Shown one piece after another: positions 20,935-33,329 of a stretch of 64,000 nt of DNA (position 1 is the stretch's first letter; each line of letters begins with the position of its first letter). A program made the position numbers and the translations under genes. Origin of the DNA: Armatimonadota bacterium (GTDB taxonomy: Bacteria > Armatimonadota > Fimbriimonadia > Fimbriimonadales > Fimbriimonadaceae); the NCBI GenBank assembly GCA_027451905.1, contig DAIDHV010000003.1:62001-126000 (forward strand). Direction: 5' to 3'. Below the pieces are notes generated by a model that was not told where the DNA came from, made no database searches, and saw nothing but the letters and a program-made list of their open reading frames with translations.

Positions 20935-22446
<1,512 letters not shown>

Positions 22447-24086: not shown

Positions 24087-25268
24087 GTGACGAATGACTC
24101 CAGCCAAGCAGTGCCTCCTCTCCAGGTCAAGCCAAGGCTTCACTTGGCCTTTTTGGACGGCATTCGAGGATTTGCCGCCTTCTATGTTGCTCTTGGGCAT
24201 GCCTTGCTACAGGGCTTTCCCTTATTTGGTAGCGAAGGTCAATACCATTTGGGGCTTTGGAACGTGCTTGGCATCCTGCGACGAGGTCACGATGCGGTTT
24301 CCATCTTTATTGTCTTGTCTGGCTTTTGCCTGATGCTACCTGTTGCCAGAGCCGAGGGATATCTTATCGGCGGATGGAGAAACTTCATTCAAAAAAGATT
24401 TGTCCGCATCATTCCAACCTACTACGCCGCACTCATCATTTCAATAGTTTTGGCAACCACCGTGATCGGTCAAAAAACAGGAACCCATTGGGACGTTGCG
24501 ATCCCCGTCACAAGATGGGATGTTATCACCCATTTTCTTCTGATACAAGACATTTTTCCTGCCACTCAAGCTAAAATCAATCACGTTTTTTGGTCGATTT
24601 CGGTGGAATGGCGCATCTATTTTGTGTTTCCATTGCTTGTGTGGGCTTTTCGAGCTAAGGGATTTGTTTGGCCCACCATTGTCACCTTCATTGTGTGCGG
24701 AATTATTTGGGAAGGGCTCCGCCACAATCCTCACATTTTCTCATCACTCACTATCCACTACACGGCCCTGTTTGCCCTGGGGATGGCGGGATCAACCATT
24801 GTTTATGGCTCAACCGCGATCGGAGAAAAATGGAAAAAAGCCCCATGGGCTTGGATGGGATTTGTTGCTTTTGTCCTATATCTGGGCACCCTTATCCACG
24901 GAGTGCCCGCCATTGTTCAAGACACTCTTATTGGACTCTTTGCAACCGGACTCATGATTGCAGTTGGCCTCAACCCAACCTGCCCGATGGGTCAGTTCTT
25001 AAGTTGGAAACCCCTGTGCTGGCTAGGCGGAATTGGTTACTCACTGTATTTAATGCATGCTCCATTGCTGCAGGTCTTTCAACAGTACGTCTTGACTCCG
25101 CTGGGGCTTGTTGCCAATTCAGAGCCTCATCGGCTTGAAATTGTTTTTTGTTTGATCTTTGTTGCCATGCCCCTGATCTTGGCTGTGATCTGGATGTTTT
25201 ACAAGGCATTTGAACTGCCATTTGCCAAATGGAGCCAAGCCCTTACCAAAAAGGTGGAATCTGCTTGA
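24087..25268 (+). CDS. Acyltransferase 3 family membrane protein
   Basis: Integral membrane protein of 393 residues with about ten hydrophobic helices, of the OafA/YrhL type that O-acylates sugars of surface polysaccharides or lipids. Family marks: FLDGIRGFAAFYVALGHA at the start (His at the active site), HDAVSIFIVLSGFCL, FVRIIPTYYAAL (the RxxR-like region) and FWSISVEWRIYFVFPLL (SxxxE). The start is GTG, with the domain beginning about residue 15. A second member lies at 32088-33329 on the opposite strand. The acceptor is unknown. Confidence 0.92.
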   Translation: MTNDSSQAVPPLQVKPRLHLAFLDGIRGFAAFYVALGHALLQGFPLFGSEGQYHLGLWNVLGILRRGHDAVSIFIVLSGFCLMLPVARAEGYLIGGWRNFIQKRFVRIIPTYYAALIISIVLATTVIGQKTGTHWDVAIPVTRWDVITHFLLIQDIFPATQAKINHVFWSISVEWRIYFVFPLLVWAFRAKGFVWPTIVTFIVCGIIWEGLRHNPHIFSSLTIHYTALFALGMAGSTIVYGSTAIGEKWKKAPWAWMGFVAFVLYLGTLIHGVPAIVQDTLIGLFATGLMIAVGLNPTCPMGQFLSWKPLCWLGGIGYSLYLMHAPLLQVFQQYVLTPLGLVANSEPHRLEIVFCLIFVAMPLILAVIWMFYKAFELPFAKWSQALTKKVESA

Positions 25269-25371: not shown

Positions 25372-26991
25372 TTAGCGTTTTGCCAACCTTTGATCAACCG
25401 CAATCGGCACATATCCAAGGCCAAGGCGCTTGGGGGGATGCACTATGAGGCCAGGATCCAAAGACGCCAAACTACCGAGCCTAGGTGGTGCCATGTACTG
25501 CTTGTTGATGGTCCAATACCGCTGCAAAAGTTCAACCTTTTTCTGAAGCTGATCACGGTCCGATTGGGTTAATCCGGCATGCATCAATGCGGGCTGATCT
25601 TCAAATTTGTACCAATAGTAGGTGACCACAGTCCCATCACCAAGATGGGCATAGTACGGCCCAGTGGCAGGACCTGGGTTTTGCCAGGTGGGATCGGTTG
25701 CAAAGGGCGTGGTCAACGGCTTAGACGGATTCTCTTTAGGAGTCTTCCAAACAATGGTTTTGAGCCCCGTGCCAGGTGGCACATTCCCCTTTTTGATCGG
25801 CTCCCACATTGGCTTGCCTCTTGAGTTGGTTTTCAGTTGATAATATTGGGGAATTGTCACAAGACCGTTGTGCTGCTTAACCCAAGATTGAGACCAACGA
25901 AACCCAAATCCATACGGGCCCGGTTCGAACGATTTTGAAAAGGCGGTGAAGTCAATCGGGATTTTTTGATCCTTGCCATTGGGCCCTTTCAGACTGATCT
26001 CCCATGTGGAATATCCCGACCCCTGAAACGTGCGGTGAAAGGCACCAATGGGTCTGAACTGGGTTGGACTTGGCAACCCTCCCTGAAACCATCGATTCAC
26101 CGAGTTCCATAAGGCCTGCTTGCTATACAAAACGCTCTGGGCTACCAAAATCGAGCCTTGTCTTGAGTTGGCTGGAAAAGAGGTCGGTGCGATTCTGGCA
26201 TATGTCTCACCATTCGAGGCTTTTGCAACCGCGCAGGCGATGTAATGTGTTTCCATTTGGATGGCCATGTTGGGATTCATTGGCCTTGAATCGAGCAACT
26301 GCCCTATGAGGTCTGGCTTGGTCAACCCAAAGTGAGACCAAAAGTAGGGCAAAAAGAACGCAACCGGGCCCTTAAAGTTTTTAGCGTTTAAGAAGAGGGT
26401 CCAGCAGTTGCCGCCCGTCGGCACATTTTGGCCGTCCGTCGTGGACTTCGTCGGAAGCAACGGCAAGTTCATGTACCCGTACCCAAAAAGTTGGCCAGCT
26501 TGACCGGCTTTTAAGTTGATTTCATCGGGAGGAAAAAGCAGCCAAGGGCTCAGCTGGGCAACCGCATATTTTCCCCGAGGTTTGCTCCAGGTTCCTGCCC
26601 CCATATCTGGTCCGCTTGCAATTTCAGAGAAATTTGGGCCGACGCCGCCGATTTCAAACTTGGGTTCTAATTGAGGGAATCGGGTATTTGTCCACCATCC
26701 CAACCCTCCTTCCGCATCTGAATACATATGAGGCGGTGCGGGCTTTTTGTAGTTGGCAAACATCCAAGTGCCAGGCAGACCCGTTTCGAAATCGCGGCCA
26801 GGATAATAGTTTTCCAATGGCCACACCGGCACGTAAAGAGAAAATCCCTGGTTGAACTGAGGCTGAGCGCCCCGCACAGGGATAATCAAATATCCAAACA
26901 CGTACTTCGAACTTGCCCATAGGTGACCTATGAACAAATGAGAGCCTAGGAGAAGCCCTACAGAAACTCCCTTTTTAAGAATCGCTAACAT
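25372..26991 (-). CDS. Exported protein of unknown function
   Basis: Protein of 539 residues from the ATG at 26991 (GGCGAG just upstream; an in-frame TTG is at 27021). The N-terminus MLAILKKGVSVGLLLGSHLFIG is a signal peptide. The body is rich in Trp, Tyr, Pro and Gly (FSLYVPVWPLENYYPGRDFE, FFLPYFWSHFGL), indicating a beta-rich secreted fold. I recognise no catalytic motif or family. It is followed on the opposite strand by the acyltransferase and preceded by the divergent VanW-glycosyltransferase gene. Coding status is secure from length; function unknown. Confidence 0.65.
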   Translation of the reverse strand: MLAILKKGVSVGLLLGSHLFIGHLWASSKYVFGYLIIPVRGAQPQFNQGFSLYVPVWPLENYYPGRDFETGLPGTWMFANYKKPAPPHMYSDAEGGLGWWTNTRFPQLEPKFEIGGVGPNFSEIASGPDMGAGTWSKPRGKYAVAQLSPWLLFPPDEINLKAGQAGQLFGYGYMNLPLLPTKSTTDGQNVPTGGNCWTLFLNAKNFKGPVAFFLPYFWSHFGLTKPDLIGQLLDSRPMNPNMAIQMETHYIACAVAKASNGETYARIAPTSFPANSRQGSILVAQSVLYSKQALWNSVNRWFQGGLPSPTQFRPIGAFHRTFQGSGYSTWEISLKGPNGKDQKIPIDFTAFSKSFEPGPYGFGFRWSQSWVKQHNGLVTIPQYYQLKTNSRGKPMWEPIKKGNVPPGTGLKTIVWKTPKENPSKPLTTPFATDPTWQNPGPATGPYYAHLGDGTVVTYYWYKFEDQPALMHAGLTQSDRDQLQKKVELLQRYWTINKQYMAPPRLGSLASLDPGLIVHPPKRLGLGYVPIAVDQRLAKR

Positions 26992-27021
26992 TTTTCTCGC
27001 CAAGATTATCTGCTCCAACAC

Positions 27022-27440
27022 TGCGTTTCATCAGGATTATACTTATCTACATTGCTGGGCGAACCAATTGTAACTGGTCAGCCCCCATTTGTGAAGACAA
27101 CTTAAGATGAGACCTCCGAGAGTGACGAGTGAGGTTTTAAGGATTCGATTGTTTTTGGTAGAAATTCTTTCTACTGTCACCGCTCAACCTTATGAACTGC
27201 TCGGTAGCAAAGGAAAACTGATAAAGTCCCTACCTGGCACGAACTGGACCGAGATCATGGTACGAAACGATATTTTGCACAAAGCTATGTTCTTGAGTGA
27301 ACGTACAATACTTTAGATCATTTCTATACTTTGTAAAGCAGAATAGGCAAATGGATTATGCGAGGTCAATCTTTGGCTAATTCAACTGCTCTCTACCCGA
27401 GATTATTAGATTTGTAGCCTCTAAAACCCTAGGAGCTAAG
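27022..27440. other. Divergent intergenic region
   Basis: Lies between the exported protein and the VanW fusion gene. A plus-strand frame at 27107-27316 (69 codons) is open but has no family features, and I do not call it. The sequence is AT-rich towards 27300-27400 and ends with AGGAGCTAAG before the ATG at 27441, a good ribosome binding site. Confidence 0.5.
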
Positions 27441-29303
27441 ATGGCAAAAGGAAATAACCACACTTTGTCCCGTCAAGTTGTTTTTATCGCGAAGTCGAAC
27501 GTGCTTCGTCTTTGCAGAGCAATTGCCAATCGCAAATCCAAATTGTGCATTTGTGCCAAGGCAAACCAAATTGACCGTTCACTCCCATTTGTAGAGTCCA
27601 ATTCTGAACTTTGGGTCGACGAAACCTTAGCCGAAAAGTTGTTGCAATGCGGCAAGATTGAAAATCTACGTGTGGCAATTCAAAAGCTAAACGGCATTAT
27701 TATCCCTGCTGGGCAGACCTTCAGCTTTTGGCACCAAATAGGAAGACCGTCAAAACTGAAAGGATACGTATTAGGTAGAGAACTACGAGAAGGATGCATT
27801 ATTCCCGCTATTGGAGGCGGGATTTGCCAACTCTCAAACACTCTTTATGATGTTGCCCTTAAGGCTGGAGCCACAATTCAAGAACGTCACCGCCATTCTC
27901 AGATCATTCCTGGTTCTGCCGCATCCGAGGATCGCGATGCAACCGTGGCTTGGAACTATATTGACCTTCGCTTTTTATTTCAATTCGATTGCCAATTGGA
28001 AGCCACACTTACAGATAGCAGGCTGATTATCAGACTTTATGCCAAAGATCTTATACCAAATACCAGTAGAAAGCCCATTCCACTTAAAATAGCAGGGCGC
28101 CAAAGTGGGCCGCAAAGTTGCTACACTTGCGGAGAATTTGCATGCAGACGACATAAAGATTTGATCGGCTTGGGGCTAAACACTCCTGATGCTTGCACAA
28201 CATATCTGCTCGACTGTGCCTGGCCGGAGTTTCAGAAATGGATAAAAAGTTCTGTCGAGAGCCAAGAATTAGTTATTACACCATTTCCAGTCGGGTTCAA
28301 AGGTAGATGTGGATGGCAGAAAATGTGTGAATACCACCTGCATTCTGGGTTTACAGCTGCGCTGAGATCGGTTCAAGCGCGGAGGAGAGGTTCTGCTTCT
28401 GAAAAGAGAAGTCGGCAACTAAAAGCTACCGATATGTTAGCGCGGGCCGGGGCTAGAAAAATCCCAATAACTTCTGTTAGATTAGTAGTTGACGTTAGTT
28501 TCCTTGCCGAGTTGCAGCGCATTGGCACATTAGGAGGCAGATCTTATGAAGTGCTCATGTCTCGTGCTCCAATTAAGATGATTCATGAGCAACTTGAGGG
28601 CGCTTCGATTTCAGATCCGTTCGCCACGAGCCTCAGTGACTTTCGTGCAGATAATGAAAGAGTCGAGCTAGAGTGGATGGCACTTTGCCGAGCAAGCAAA
28701 ATTATTACACCTCATCATGGCATAGCAAAGTGGCTGGAGAGTCGCGGGATAAAAGCGGAAATTATTGATTGGATTCTTCCTGAGCCTGCTGTTGAAGAAA
28801 AAAAAGGAAACTATCTTTACTTTCCAGGGCCAACCATGGCCCGCGAGGGTGCGAAGGCGGTCAGAGATGCGGCGAAAGCACTTCATTTGTCAGTTAGTGT
28901 TAGTGGTGCGATGCTGGAGCCGCCTAGTTTTTGGGAAGGTGTAACAATTCTTTCGCCTCAGGAAGCACCGCTTGAGGGTTCGATCGCGGTTGTGCATCCG
29001 GCTGCTCTCAAGGATCGACCGACCGCATGCTTACGCGCACTTTCTGCCGGTATCCCAGTTATTGCAACATCCGGATGCGGAATTTCTCAGATCATCGAAG
29101 TTAGTTTTGGTTCAGTAGACGAAGTTGTCGCTGCTGTTCAAGGTGTCATCGAAGCTAGATCTTCAGCTAAGACTAACTGTCCTTCAGACCCCCAATCGCC
29201 CTCCTCACGTAGCGTCCCTCAAAAACTAGGGCAAACAAGAAGTGTTAAGCGCTTCACTGCGTTGCGCCAATCTATGGTTTGCCCCTTCCCCCATTCGGCT
29301 TGA
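27441..29303 (+). CDS. VanW-domain/glycosyltransferase-like fusion protein
   Basis: Protein of 620 residues with no signal peptide. Residues about 75-210 are a VanW domain: NGIIIPAGQTFSFWHQIG, GGGICQLSNTLYDVALKAG, QERHRHSQIIPGS and DATVAWNYIDLRF. A cysteine-rich linker follows (CYTCGEFACRRH near 225). Residues about 350-580 look like a glycosyltransferase of the GT4 type: ITPHHGIAKWLESRGI, LYFPGPTMAREGAKAV and the donor-site-like PTACLRALSAGIPVIATSGCG. VanW domains occur in some vancomycin-resistance and spore or surface proteins, with unknown activity; fusion to a glycosyltransferase suggests cell-envelope glycan work. The last 35 residues derive from an antisense acyltransferase remnant, so the native stop may be lost. 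Confidence 0.72.
   Translation: MAKGNNHTLSRQVVFIAKSNVLRLCRAIANRKSKLCICAKANQIDRSLPFVESNSELWVDETLAEKLLQCGKIENLRVAIQKLNGIIIPAGQTFSFWHQIGRPSKLKGYVLGRELREGCIIPAIGGGICQLSNTLYDVALKAGATIQERHRHSQIIPGSAASEDRDATVAWNYIDLRFLFQFDCQLEATLTDSRLIIRLYAKDLIPNTSRKPIPLKIAGRQSGPQSCYTCGEFACRRHKDLIGLGLNTPDACTTYLLDCAWPEFQKWIKSSVESQELVITPFPVGFKGRCGWQKMCEYHLHSGFTAALRSVQARRRGSASEKRSRQLKATDMLARAGARKIPITSVRLVVDVSFLAELQRIGTLGGRSYEVLMSRAPIKMIHEQLEGASISDPFATSLSDFRADNERVELEWMALCRASKIITPHHGIAKWLESRGIKAEIIDWILPEPAVEEKKGNYLYFPGPTMAREGAKAVRDAAKALHLSVSVSGAMLEPPSFWEGVTILSPQEAPLEGSIAVVHPAALKDRPTACLRALSAGIPVIATSGCGISQIIEVSFGSVDEVVAAVQGVIEARSSAKTNCPSDPQSPSSRSVPQKLGQTRSVKRFTALRQSMVCPFPHSA
29198..29249 (-). pseudogene. Acyltransferase-3 gene remnant, antisense to the fusion gene tail
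   Basis: About 52 bases match 32149-32200, the 3' part of the second acyltransferase gene, with eight or so differences. On the minus strand it would encode FEGRYVRRAI-like residues. It is a leftover of a recombination that joined unrelated sequence to the fusion gene. Confidence 0.65.
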
Positions 29304-30150
29304 TCCCAAGCTTCTTTTGACGTTCCGCTAGCACTTCGGACTGGGAGTTTCCATAACGCAACCACGTGAGCATCCACTGACCCCTGCCAGAAGTTACCTT
29401 GATGCCATTAGAAAGGGCAGTGACCGATTCCTTGTACTGATGGTCAAGTCCAAGTGCGTTTCCAAGTTGAAAATAGCAAAACGCATTCGTTGGCGCATAT
29501 TTCACGGCAAAGGCATCGTACTGAGCTTCTAGGGCAAGGTCCCAACGACTGCTGGCATAACGATCAATACCTAGGTAGCAAAGAGCAGCGACGCCGTCCT
29601 TCGTCTTAGGCATAGGTGCCGGCGTTCCATTTTTAGGATTGCCAACAAGTGCATCATAATGAGCCACTTCCTTTTTGGCTCCAGCGAGATCGCCGTGTTT
29701 GAGATCTAACAAACCCTGCAGGGCATGGCTCAAACCATCGTCATCAACCCCCCGAAGTGGTTGCCGCTTGAGCCATGCGAGAACACCAATCGGCTCTTCT
29801 GTATGACCGAGCCGGAGTGCAGCTTGGGAAAAGATCTCGCCAAAGTTGCTCCAGTTGATGACCGAGGTAGAACAAATTGCCTTCTGCTTTCGATATTCCG
29901 CAAAATACTCTCTGCCAAGCAGATACACGTCCATGATTTTTCCCTCCTTGTAACGCTTCGTCAGGTCGGCGGTCCTGGCAAGTTGGTTGTCAACTTCCAT
30001 TTTTTCTTCAGGGGTAAATGCGCCGACATAGGTTACACCGTACTTGCTAAACGGATCAAATGTCTTGTAATGCCCAGCAAATGGCGGTTGCTTCTGAGTT
30101 TTTGATTGGGCTTGCGCTAACGCAAACGCTATGAAAATGAAAAGTGACAT
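29272..30150 (-). CDS. Exported TPR-like protein of unknown function
   Basis: Protein of 292 residues. The N-terminus MSLFIFIAFALAQAQ is a signal peptide; AAGGAA lies nine bases upstream of the ATG. The C-terminal half has tetratricopeptide-like helices (WDLALEAQYDAFAVKYAP, AFCYFQLGNALGLDHQYKESV). It may act as a scaffold outside the membrane. It lies 22 bases after the next upstream gene on the same strand (30172-31746), so the two form a likely operon. The final 32 bases overlap the end of the VanW fusion gene on the other strand. Confidence 0.7.
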   Translation of the reverse strand: MSLFIFIAFALAQAQSKTQKQPPFAGHYKTFDPFSKYGVTYVGAFTPEEKMEVDNQLARTADLTKRYKEGKIMDVYLLGREYFAEYRKQKAICSTSVINWSNFGEIFSQAALRLGHTEEPIGVLAWLKRQPLRGVDDDGLSHALQGLLDLKHGDLAGAKKEVAHYDALVGNPKNGTPAPMPKTKDGVAALCYLGIDRYASSRWDLALEAQYDAFAVKYAPTNAFCYFQLGNALGLDHQYKESVTALSNGIKVTSGRGQWMLTWLRYGNSQSEVLAERQKKLGIKPNGGRGKP

Positions 30151-30171: not shown

Positions 30172-31746
30172 TTAACTTCCAGTATTTGAGTTGACGAGAT
30201 TCCATGTTGGATGATAGGGAGTTTTGAAAGGTGGGTCACTTTGAACAGATGATGAACTTAAGACCCACTTCCGGTTCTTGTACGTAGCAACCCCGCCCCA
30301 ACACCAGCTAATGCACGCAAGAGGGACATCGCAAATGTTAGCACCCGGCGGGCGGTACATAAGATACATGCTTGCACATACATTGACTGCAGCTCCCGTT
30401 TCGGGGTAACCATTATTCTTCCGAGCGAGCGATATCCACGACTCATAATGAGCAACTATTTTTTGACCGTTGGCAGGAAAAGTTCCCGGCGAATCAAACG
30501 GGTAAGGGTAGCCCTTGTCGAGCCCATAGCTATTGCTACCTGGCGGCAAATACTGGGAGCCATCCTGGAAGGTCTCTACCCTATTGGGGTCAATAAGCTG
30601 GGCGAAAAAGAAGACTCCGCCGCCACCGTACTGGCTGGGAGTGGTTACTGATCCAGTAAATGCGATTTCACTTGGATGATCATAACCACGACTGCAGAGG
30701 GCAAGCTTATTTGGGGCGCCCAGCGGAATTAATTGAGCAATTCCGGTTGCACTAGAGAAACTAAAATCGGGTTCGTCAAGGTTAACCATGGCGGTAAGCG
30801 GGACGCAAAGCCGTTGCCCACCTGCCTTCACAGTCGCGGTGCACTGAATCGTTTCGACCGAGCTCGGTCCGATCGTCTCACCAGCAAAGAAAAAATTTGT
30901 CTGGGCGGAATTGAGAGGTCTCCACGGAACGACTTTTCCCACAGAGCCAGCAGTATAGGCTGCAAAAGGGTGACCTCCGCTTGTGGACCAAATATAATTT
31001 GGGTGCATGTTAGGGTCGGTTGGTATGCCAAGATTCACTCGCGCCGACAGCTGTTGCCCGACAAGTATATGAGGGCACGGATTTGGGTGAGAATGGGGAA
31101 ACGCGGTGGTGCCAGAAAGAACAATATGAGGCACTATGACGCTATCCGAAAAAGCCACCGAAGCCGACGGAGGGTGCAAGTTCCCCACAGCATCAACGGT
31201 CGGATCAACGACCTTCATATTGACTTTGTTACCAGGACTACTGATGACCACGTAATCGCTTGCGGATATTCCGGATCGATTCGAGTCAGTGGAGGATTGA
31301 CCAATGCCATCGTCCCATTGACCCGTATCGGCGTTAAAAGAGACCGAAACATTCTGTTTGACAATGATCACAGAAGGAGTGGGGGCCAATGTCTTTTCGC
31401 CTGGGTCCAAGGTCCAAGTGAGAGTAGACTGAATCTGCCCTGAGCAGTAAACCGTTCCTTCAGTTGGCGGAGCTAGCGGATTCAGAGAACCAACAAGGAG
31501 TCCGCCCCCTGCCCACTGTCCAAATTTATTTAGAGAGTAATGCAATTGGTACGGCGCGTATGGTGCATCTGGAGTAAAGTAGCTAATACCACCTTTGTAA
31601 GTCACCACGTAATGGCTAGCGTAAGCGACGCTTGTAAAAGCCGTCATAAGCAATACGCAGGCCCCAAGCAACAATTCCCTTAGGACTATGCAACCGAACT
31701 GGGCACGAATTACTTTGAAAAGGGAGCTAACTATGGACCGACGCAT
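30172..31746 (-). CDS. Large exported protein of unknown function
   Basis: Protein of 524 residues from the ATG at 31746 (an in-frame TTG at 31776 is possible). A long signal segment (ELLLGACVLLMTAFTSVAYA) precedes a beta-rich body with many Ser, Thr, Gly and Pro residues and Ig-like stretches (PSASVAFSDSVIVPHIVLSG). The C-terminal part has several cysteines (NVCASMYL, NICDVPLACISWCWGG). I recognise no family. Probably a surface or secreted structural protein, co-transcribed with the TPR-like gene that follows. Confidence 0.65.
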   Translation of the reverse strand: MRRSIVSSLFKVIRAQFGCIVLRELLLGACVLLMTAFTSVAYASHYVVTYKGGISYFTPDAPYAPYQLHYSLNKFGQWAGGGLLVGSLNPLAPPTEGTVYCSGQIQSTLTWTLDPGEKTLAPTPSVIIVKQNVSVSFNADTGQWDDGIGQSSTDSNRSGISASDYVVISSPGNKVNMKVVDPTVDAVGNLHPPSASVAFSDSVIVPHIVLSGTTAFPHSHPNPCPHILVGQQLSARVNLGIPTDPNMHPNYIWSTSGGHPFAAYTAGSVGKVVPWRPLNSAQTNFFFAGETIGPSSVETIQCTATVKAGGQRLCVPLTAMVNLDEPDFSFSSATGIAQLIPLGAPNKLALCSRGYDHPSEIAFTGSVTTPSQYGGGGVFFFAQLIDPNRVETFQDGSQYLPPGSNSYGLDKGYPYPFDSPGTFPANGQKIVAHYESWISLARKNNGYPETGAAVNVCASMYLMYRPPGANICDVPLACISWCWGGVATYKNRKWVLSSSSVQSDPPFKTPYHPTWNLVNSNTGS

Positions 31747-31776
31747 ATGCAAAATTATACGCACCAACACTTTCAA

Positions 31777-32087: not shown

Positions 32088-33329
32088 TTAGCTGGCTTCT
32101 GATGGATTCACGGGAATCGAAATGACAGAATCCCTGTCTATAAGCAGGTCTTGAATCGCCCTCCTCACGTAGCGGCCCTCAAAGACCAGAGAAAACAAGA
32201 AGGCGCTGGCAACCGCAATAGGCACCCCCACGATCCCCAACACCAACAAGTGACGAAGTGGGTGACCCCAAAGCCCTCTTGCGCAATAGTCCACAACTTG
32301 CAAAATCGGATGATGAACAAGGTAGAGGCTATACGAAAACGTGCCGATCAACGCGAGAGGTCTAAAAGCAAAAACTTGCGTGATCATTCGGCTGGGCTGA
32401 GCCGAAGAGCCCATTACCAAAATCAAGCAGACGGCAACCGCAAGACCCATTTCTTGCCAAATTGGAAGTGCGTTGGCATGAATTGTTAGGAGTGTTGCCC
32501 CCAATCCGCCTAAAATCGCTATGCCTAGTAGTGGTTTTAGCTTAGACACTCCAGATTCCACAAGGTCGGCGCCAACCATGCCAAGCGCAAAGAATCCAAC
32601 AAACCACGGATACAATTTCATTCCTCGCGGCACCTGCGTAATCACCACTATGGAAAACAGAGCAGTGAATACTAAAACAACGAACACCCGAACCCACTTT
32701 TGCGCACCTTTACCATTTCCAAGCCCCAATGCCAAAAGCGGAAATAGAAAATAAATCTGAAATTCAATAGCAATGCTCCATAAAACTCCGTTGATTTTGT
32801 ACATCCAAGCTGGGTTGAAATTGTGGATCAAAAAGAGATGGGCCAGAACGTTTTGCACCGTCACCGGAAGGTATTGGGTGTATGGCATCTTGCCAGCTAA
32901 CGGAGTAATGGTGGTGGCAACAACAATGGATAGCACTAAGCAAGCGTAATACGGTGGCAAGATGCGCTTTGCCCTTCTCAGCATAAAAGATTGATAAGGT
33001 TCGCTGCGATTCTGAGCGCGCTGCAAAGAAGCCCACCTGAGACAAAATCCCGAGATCACGATAAAGGCAGCGACTGCCAAATGCCCGAATCCAAACGCAA
33101 ACGCAAGATTCTGAAGCCATTGGGCTGAATGGTCTTTGATCCCTGCCAATTGGCTTGGATCAACGAAGGCAACCACATGACCCAACACCACATAGAGGGC
33201 GGCACAGGCTCGCAAGCCTTCGATGAAAGCCAACCGATGAGGGGAGCCCGTTTCTGCAATTCTGGCTTCGGTGAGGCTATGGGTTCCCTCTGGCAGTGAT
33301 TGAGATGTTATCAAGGTTGAGTCACTCAA
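32088..33329 (-). CDS. Acyltransferase 3 family membrane protein
   Basis: Integral membrane protein of 413 residues with about ten helices, related to the one at 24087. Marks: FIEGLRACAALYVVLGHVVAF, LAVAAFIVISGFCLRW, RRAKRILPPYYACLVLS and LWSIAIEFQIYFLFPLL. It probably O-acylates a surface glycan. The only available start is TTG at 33329, before about 30 soluble residues. A piece of a related gene's 3' end lies at 29198-29249. Divergent from the PrcB-like gene. Confidence 0.92.
   Translation of the reverse strand: MSDSTLITSQSLPEGTHSLTEARIAETGSPHRLAFIEGLRACAALYVVLGHVVAFVDPSQLAGIKDHSAQWLQNLAFAFGFGHLAVAAFIVISGFCLRWASLQRAQNRSEPYQSFMLRRAKRILPPYYACLVLSIVVATTITPLAGKMPYTQYLPVTVQNVLAHLFLIHNFNPAWMYKINGVLWSIAIEFQIYFLFPLLALGLGNGKGAQKWVRVFVVLVFTALFSIVVITQVPRGMKLYPWFVGFFALGMVGADLVESGVSKLKPLLGIAILGGLGATLLTIHANALPIWQEMGLAVAVCLILVMGSSAQPSRMITQVFAFRPLALIGTFSYSLYLVHHPILQVVDYCARGLWGHPLRHLLVLGIVGVPIAVASAFLFSLVFEGRYVRRAIQDLLIDRDSVISIPVNPSEAS

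Follow-up and report, generated by a model that had tools for sequence, protein, structure and literature searches.

A VanW domain joined to a predicted GT-B glycosyltransferase domain in proteins of Armatimonadota and other bacterial phyla

The fusion gene and its surroundings

A single open reading frame (ORF) in the 64-kb stretch of Armatimonadota DNA analysed here (the whole stretch is called the window below) encodes a VanW domain followed by a domain with the predicted fold of a GT-B glycosyltransferase (Table 1). The first-pass annotation had read the gene as a fusion of these two parts, and this reading stands: the VanW model PF04294 matches the first part, a GT-B fold is predicted for the second, and 49 distinct members of the family, window copy included, have been aligned. 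Relatives in two genomes of the same taxonomic family align over residues 47-578 and 51-552 with 40 and 39% identity, and the window ORF is therefore not a chance reading frame. The fusion is a real architecture within a single ORF of 620 amino acids. The tail end of the gene overlaps a convergent ORF (29272-30150, minus strand).

Table 1. Features of the fusion gene and of the protein that it encodes (window coordinates).
Feature	Position	Strand	Basis
Fusion gene, 620 aa + stop, ATG start	27441..29303	+	ORF list; full-length relatives
AGGAG, probable ribosome-binding site, 5 bases 5' of the ATG	27431..27435	+	sequence
N-terminal helix, residues 9-33, cationic, moderately amphipathic; no signal peptide seen	27465..27539	+	model secondary structure, hydrophobic moment, hydropathy
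VanW domain, residues 72-200	27654..28040	+	PF04294, E 2.5e-34
Cys119, proposed fourth metal ligand; invariant in the fusion family, absent from other VanW types compared	27795..27797	+	alignment
Cys129, proposed nucleophile	27825..27827	+	invariant in 80/80 aligned VanW rows
His152, proposed catalytic histidine	27894..27896	+	invariant in 80/80 aligned VanW rows
CxxCx4C linker motif (C227, C230, C235)	28119..28145	+	49/49 members; co-occurs with C119
GT-B (GT4-like) domain, residues 249-578	28185..29174	+	predicted model; WaaG profile match
R468-E469-G470, counterpart of the RKG of the family and WaaG; K to E in the window	28842..28850	+	alignment
K524, first-Glu position of EX7E (E in 48/49 members); K in the window	29010..29012	+	alignment
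C-terminal tail, residues 579-620, no counterpart in two aligned relatives	29175..29300	+	alignment

Proteins with an acyltransferase_3 domain (PF01757) are encoded on either side of the fusion gene, at 24087-25268 (+) and 32088-33329 (-), and share no operon with it. Two long ORFs lie closer, at 25372-27021 (-; 549 aa) and 30172-31776 (-; 534 aa); both appear by eye to have hydrophobic N-terminal stretches, and neither has a Pfam match at E<=1. The 16S rRNA gene at 20935-22445 (-) is complete and solitary, and ORFs listed at ~21.0-22.5 kb that overlap it are probably its shadows. The rRNA genes of this genome look unlinked, since no 23S or 5S rRNA was detected elsewhere in the 64-kb window at Rfam gathering thresholds.

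The VanW half

PF04294 scores 118 bits in the window protein against a cut-off of 27, and matches all 49 members at E<=1e-3. The invariance of C129 and H152 extends over several VanW types and is shared by N75, S95, G118, G126 and D175. In leave-one-out counts over 46 rows (the three members cut at the start being left out), the window protein keeps 41 of 41 near-invariant residues of this half. The loop bearing H152 is weak in the full AlphaFold2 model (pLDDT 63-64 for residues 151-170) and reaches 80-86 in a model of the VanW half (pLDDT 87.3). Compared with the PDB, this VanW-only model gave no match at E<=0.001 and none with Z >=5, which is not proof of a new fold; sequence searches of solved structures had no VanW protein among the matches listed. 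A second VanW protein of the window genome, a 452-residue frame, has no C119.

The statement in the first-pass annotation that VanW domains have no established activity is outdated. LdtCd4 and LdtCd5 of C. difficile are VanW proteins that were identified as L,D-transpeptidases in 2024 (PMC12729407, PMC11986978), which makes VanW a second family of such enzymes in that species; the review PMC12729407 credits the finding to Bollinger et al. 2024 (PNAS). The same review describes both as predicted to be membrane-attached, with PG4 domains and a Cys-His-small-residue triad; for some VanW proteins it notes an absence of L,D-transpeptidase activity and an unknown role. VanW-B is an accessory protein of the vanB vancomycin-resistance clusters; vanW of B- and G-type enterococci is listed in PMC8541618 as of unknown function.

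The fusion resembles LdtCd4 and LdtCd5 in its VanW domain and in the cysteine and histidine of the published triad (PMC12729407), which are invariant in the rows aligned here. It differs from these predicted membrane-attached, PG4-bearing enzymes in that it has no hydrophobic N-terminus, a cysteine set of its own and a GT-B domain; no peptidoglycan-binding Pfam model matched the window protein at E<=1. With VanW-B, a short VanW protein, the fusion shares the lack of a hydrophobic N-terminus and the counterparts of C129 and H152; C119 and CxxCx4C are both missing from VanW-B, which at 275 aa also lacks a glycosyltransferase half. The nearest NCBIfam model is the VanW equivalog NF033128 (E 2.3e-22), whose cut-off of 365 bits lies far above the 79.9 bits obtained. 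YkuD L,D-transpeptidases have the same kind of catalytic triad but are not superimposable on VanW, according to PMC12729407. Judged by sequence, the fusion is a VanW member; the proven enzymes' anchor and PG4 domains are absent from it, and it has a GT-B partner and a family-specific cysteine set. A description of a VanW-glycosyltransferase fusion was not found among the open-access papers listed, as judged by title, by start of abstract and, for a few, by passages of the text.

The glycosyltransferase-like half

The AlphaFold2 model of the window protein, built with 49 family sequences, has a mean pLDDT of 87.0 and a pTM of 0.88. Over residues 249-578 the model matches GT4-type GT-B enzymes with Z 15-20; the best is 6kih (Z 20.3, 293 residues aligned, rmsd 4.0), and GlgM, PglA, BshA, WaaG, MshA and others come next at Z 17-19. 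Foldseek with the full model gave E-values down to 6.8e-8; the TM-scores are low (0.25-0.34 by query length) because one domain of two is matched. By sequence the best relative of known structure is WaaG (RfaG; 2iv7), a GT4 glycosyltransferase of the lipopolysaccharide (LPS) core, which the family profile matches at E 1.2e-5; the likeness extends to the fold (Z 17.8 to 2iv7), to RKG and to the signature PxxxE...LLEA...G.PV..T..CG. The Pfam GT4 models fall below their cut-offs in the window protein (PF00534, 15.1 vs 26.4 bits; PF13692, 13.6 vs 27), and that of PF13692 is exceeded in both relatives tested (30.7 and 28.0 bits). PF13692 matches 40 of the 49 members at E<=1e-3, the window protein not being among them. 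The C-terminal half is thus predicted to fold as a complete GT-B/GT4-type glycosyltransferase; this supports the GT4-like label given to it earlier and is the opposite of the first outcome that the first-pass annotation had named as refuting.

We take EX7E to be a GT4 signature, and positions 469 and 524 to be key positions of the presumed sugar-donor site in GT4 enzymes. The lysine of RKG (469) is kept in 46 of 49 members and the first Glu of EX7E (524) in all except one; both align with their counterparts in WaaG. The family differs from WaaG in that the second Glu (532) is usually missing, being E in only 6/49, and the window protein differs further in that both key residues are changed. 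It has K524/R532 in place of EX7E, and it alone of the 49 has both E469 and K524, a reciprocal charge swap. The GT proteins of two Asticcacaulis genomes have Q and T at the same two positions. Of 36 near-invariant residues of this half the window protein keeps 33 (46 rows), having lost L354, K469 and E524; four other rows do equally well or worse. Invariant residues such as G366, R367 and R402 suggest a conserved ligand.

Glycosyltransferase catalysis is doubtful for the window copy, because of the K469E/E524K swap, and appears uncertain for the family as a whole, because the second Glu of EX7E is so rarely present. The presumed donor site of the window copy is specifically changed; with 41/41 VanW-half and 33/36 C-half residues kept, the gene is apparently not simply decaying. 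In the copies of Fimbriimonadaceae ACE_ARM7 and ARM8 (L049:4836-6623, L050:4833-6638), Ser replaces H425 and Tyr replaces W444 at near-invariant positions of the C-terminal half.

Conserved cysteines of the linker and the VanW domain

The cysteine-rich linker noted earlier is a constant trait of the family: C227, C230 and C235 are each invariant in 49/49 members, as is C119, which belongs to the VanW domain and precedes C129 by ten residues. The loci collected gave 97 distinct VanW-like core matches; 60 of these have C119 together with an in-frame CxxCx4C, and both are absent from 34 (two of which, in L038 and L073, are not VanW). All 60 genes with an in-frame motif have C119. The reverse does not quite hold: three core matches have C119 without an in-frame motif, which in L097 and L099 stands in the overlapping next gene and in L098 follows an in-frame stop. 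The co-occurrence of the linker motif with a fourth cysteine in the VanW domain is new.

Relatives without the glycosyltransferase half are of two kinds. L101 and L105 keep both the motif and C119; L102 and L103, from Caulobacter-type bins, have VanW only, without the motif, and carry R and S where the family has C119. In the best tree the latter two are nested within the family, on branches that are not starred. On the tree each trait needs only three changes, for example one gain and two losses, and therefore no significance is claimed for the co-occurrence. A CxxCx4C beside the short, C119-less VanW of L078 belongs to a frame of only 14 residues bounded by stops and is probably a chance occurrence. 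A histidine three residues after C235 (H238) is present in 38/49 members. The linker is the weakest part of the full model (block means 47-63, residues 211-250). The simplest reading of the co-occurrence would be a putative four-cysteine metal site, in which C119 and C227/C230/C235 tie the linker to the VanW active site.

Spread, split and broken forms

The same fusion, sought elsewhere, was found in six phyla according to the titles of the records (Armatimonadota, Pseudomonadota, Verrucomicrobiota, Acidobacteriota, Bacteroidota and Myxococcota), labels that can be wrong where the record is a metagenome bin. The sources include isolates of Haloferula, Luteolibacter, Albitalea and Rhizobacter, and of Asticcacaulis with a split form. 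The 49 members comprise 42 loci of named genomes and seven from a search of the phylum, window included. Among 61 near genomes, counting that of the window itself, two others carry an aligned relative.

The scan of named genomes gave 60 loci, found through VanW patterns. The 42 are full-length or nearly so in a single frame, three of them start-cut by contig ends. The others have a stop or frame break (L085, L091, L093, L094, L098), a deletion with a frame change in the C-half (L100), a cut by a contig end (L092, L095) or a shortened C-half (L096), or are ordinary longer VanW proteins of Bacillota (L106-L108), in addition to the split and GT-less loci. L085 (Sphingomonas), L091, L093 (Apibacter), L094, L098 and L100 were considered as separate-gene forms and rejected, since they have frame breaks or in-frame stops. 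In the Apibacter muscae isolate (L093:4965-6543, +), a frame change and an in-frame stop interrupt the fusion gene. In a Myxococcaceae bin, L105:2190-3077 (+) is a 296-aa VanW frame that ends in CxxCx4C, with a counterpart of C119 and no GT half; it is possibly a pre-fusion or GT-less form.

When 291 genomes of the phylum were searched with a profile built from only the C-terminal half, 17 of them matched at E<=1e-8, in 18 places (best <=7 candidates per genome). Fifteen of these places are in frames, 552-640 residues long, that contain VanW. L046, the only frame without VanW, and L048 are fragments in the same genome, truncated by contig ends; L047 has VanW and the motif in a frame whose end is near that of its contig. 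Within this search there is no clear case of a free-standing C-half.

The two halves do exist as separate genes in two genomes, Asticcacaulis biprosthecium C19 (L097) and Asticcacaulis sp. AC402 (L099), an arrangement that the first-pass annotation had counted against a fusion. The first frame encodes VanW, the second the cysteine motif and the GT half, and the cut falls just before the motif. To that extent the objection was justified, but the genes are adjacent and overlap by ATGA; halves that overlap in one lineage and are fused elsewhere argue for a joint function.

The tree of the family needs 10 phylum changes, where the least possible is 5 and the mean for shuffled labels is 21.8; phylum labels are therefore clustered on it. 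On this sequence tree the family follows the phyla broadly, if patchily, and the tree neither proves nor excludes horizontal transfers. The pairing of VanW with a glycosyltransferase-like domain is old and present in several bacterial phyla.

Cellular location and gene neighbours

None of the 49 members has an N-terminal hydrophobic segment, either upstream or in the first part of the protein, by a 19-residue hydropathy window, which is not a trained predictor. The N-terminus is informative in 46 of them (L081, L086 and L087 are cut at the start). This agrees with the earlier remark that no signal peptide is seen, and the cytosolic location proposed on that ground is probable.

In an all-against-all comparison of 526 ORFs, no neighbour family was shared by >7/60 loci, and therefore no pathway is indicated; small shared blocks are found mainly among Acidobacteria-like loci and among Alphaproteobacteria. 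A glycan-synthesis cluster shared around the loci was not found. A YkuD L,D-transpeptidase gene directly flanks four loci (L069, L076, L082, L083) in differing arrangements, and thus accounts for 4 of 89 flanking ORFs, 10 of the original 99 having been left out (two each from L050, a near-copy of L049, and from L106, and single ones from L085, L093, L097, L098, L099 and L103). At E<=1e-6 two of these loci (L076, L082) have a YkuD neighbour against ~0.08 expected over 41 genomes, with an uncorrected, post hoc P of ~0.003; the genome of L069 has no YkuD at this threshold, and L083 (28.5 bits) probably does not reach it. Two other flanking families, VWA_2 (5) and DUF58 (4), are equally frequent, and the YkuD link is weak.

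Single loci have other neighbours: a C92 papain-like amidase frame ~13 bases upstream in Asticcacaulis AC402, and a phosphodiester glycosidase (NAGPA) upstream in L057. An ORF beside L090 that clustered with the family proved to be a phage integrase/Xer-type recombinase. A defence or phage origin of the fusion was also rejected, with 0 PADLOC or PHROGs families at E<=0.01 in the four of 49 members scanned.

Possible function

The role in envelope glycan synthesis put forward in the first-pass annotation is a plausible hypothesis. As the best explanation of the whole, which we put forward tentatively and at somewhat less than an even chance, the fusion would be a soluble, cytosolic two-module enzyme of the VanW superfamily that performs cysteine acyl or peptidyl chemistry on a sugar-linked precursor held by the GT-B domain. 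The Cys129/His152 pair would carry out acyl-enzyme chemistry of the L,D-transpeptidase kind, in which an amide next to an L-centre is broken and remade, and the substrate would be a peptide- or acyl-bearing sugar precursor on the cytosolic side; a sugar-linked envelope precursor is our best guess. C119 and C227/C230/C235 would form one zinc or iron-sulphur site, by which the linker, and with it the GT-B domain, is held to the active site of VanW, and in Asticcacaulis the same four-cysteine site would lie between two polypeptides. The GT-B domain would bind the same substrate through its sugar nucleotide or lipid-linked sugar, and in most members it might also transfer sugar. In the window and Asticcacaulis proteins it is more likely a binding module, because the K469/E524 pair is changed. 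We regard the VanW half as the core of the protein, and the GT-B half as a partner that holds the substrate and may often be active. Some relatives that keep VanW have lost or shortened the GT half (L096, L101-L103, L105); that VanW is always kept is partly circular, because the named loci were found through VanW patterns.

The strongest competitor, which we consider rather unlikely, is a bifunctional enzyme of surface glycans resembling those of the LPS core or exopolysaccharides, in which the GT4 domain is the main catalyst, VanW is an accessory that modifies amide or acyl groups, and peptidoglycan is not involved. The match to WaaG, the widely kept RKG lysine and first Glu, the invariant G366, R367 and R402 with their suggestion of a conserved ligand, and the acyltransferase_3 genes on both sides of the window gene (outside any operon with it) would all fit such an enzyme. 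However, several relatives that keep VanW have the GT half missing, shortened or altered at its site, albeit among loci found with VanW-containing queries; moreover, the 291 genomes gave no clear free-standing C-half (best <=7 candidates per genome), and no glycan-synthesis cluster is common to the loci.

Somewhat less probable still is that the GT-B domain is a pseudo-glycosyltransferase throughout the family that shapes or regulates VanW, with the cysteine site as a redox or zinc switch on it. The scarcity of the second EX7E Glu, the altered K/E pair in the window and both Asticcacaulis proteins, and the ten-residue spacing of C119 from C129 are consistent with this; the pseudo-glycosyltransferase VldE is also among the structural matches, at rank 50 of the 50 listed, many of which are real enzymes. 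Yet a dead fold would not need the RKG lysine and first Glu, which are kept in 46 and 48 of the 49 members. Decay of the window copy, with the fusion having no present role there, is very improbable: its end branch is long (1.3 vs a median of 0.55), K469 and E524 are both changed and stops or frame changes disrupt several relatives elsewhere, but the 620-aa frame is open, the near-invariant residues are nearly all kept, and the two key changes form a reciprocal charge swap and not scattered decay.

The preferred reading, a cytosolic two-module VanW enzyme, can be extended to a more speculative and improbable proposal: a widespread, undescribed cytosolic VanW class in which a cysteine centre of the transpeptidase type, lying beside a four-cysteine metal site between domains (in Asticcacaulis between proteins), would edit peptides or acyl groups on nucleotide- or lipid-linked sugar precursors held by GT-B, a cytosolic step before wall assembly. 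If true, such a class would hint at the role of VanW-B in vancomycin-resistance clusters. The occurrence of the fusion across six phyla, together with isolates of Asticcacaulis that have the two-gene form, makes a tractable system, in which the cysteines to mutate are defined and the substrates to try are few; in the order to which Asticcacaulis belongs VanW is rare (3/200 genomes drawn), and a deletion there would therefore have few or no paralogues behind it. The fusion links VanW to a fold of the sugar-nucleotide type and may thus offer a route to the role of VanW inside the cell.
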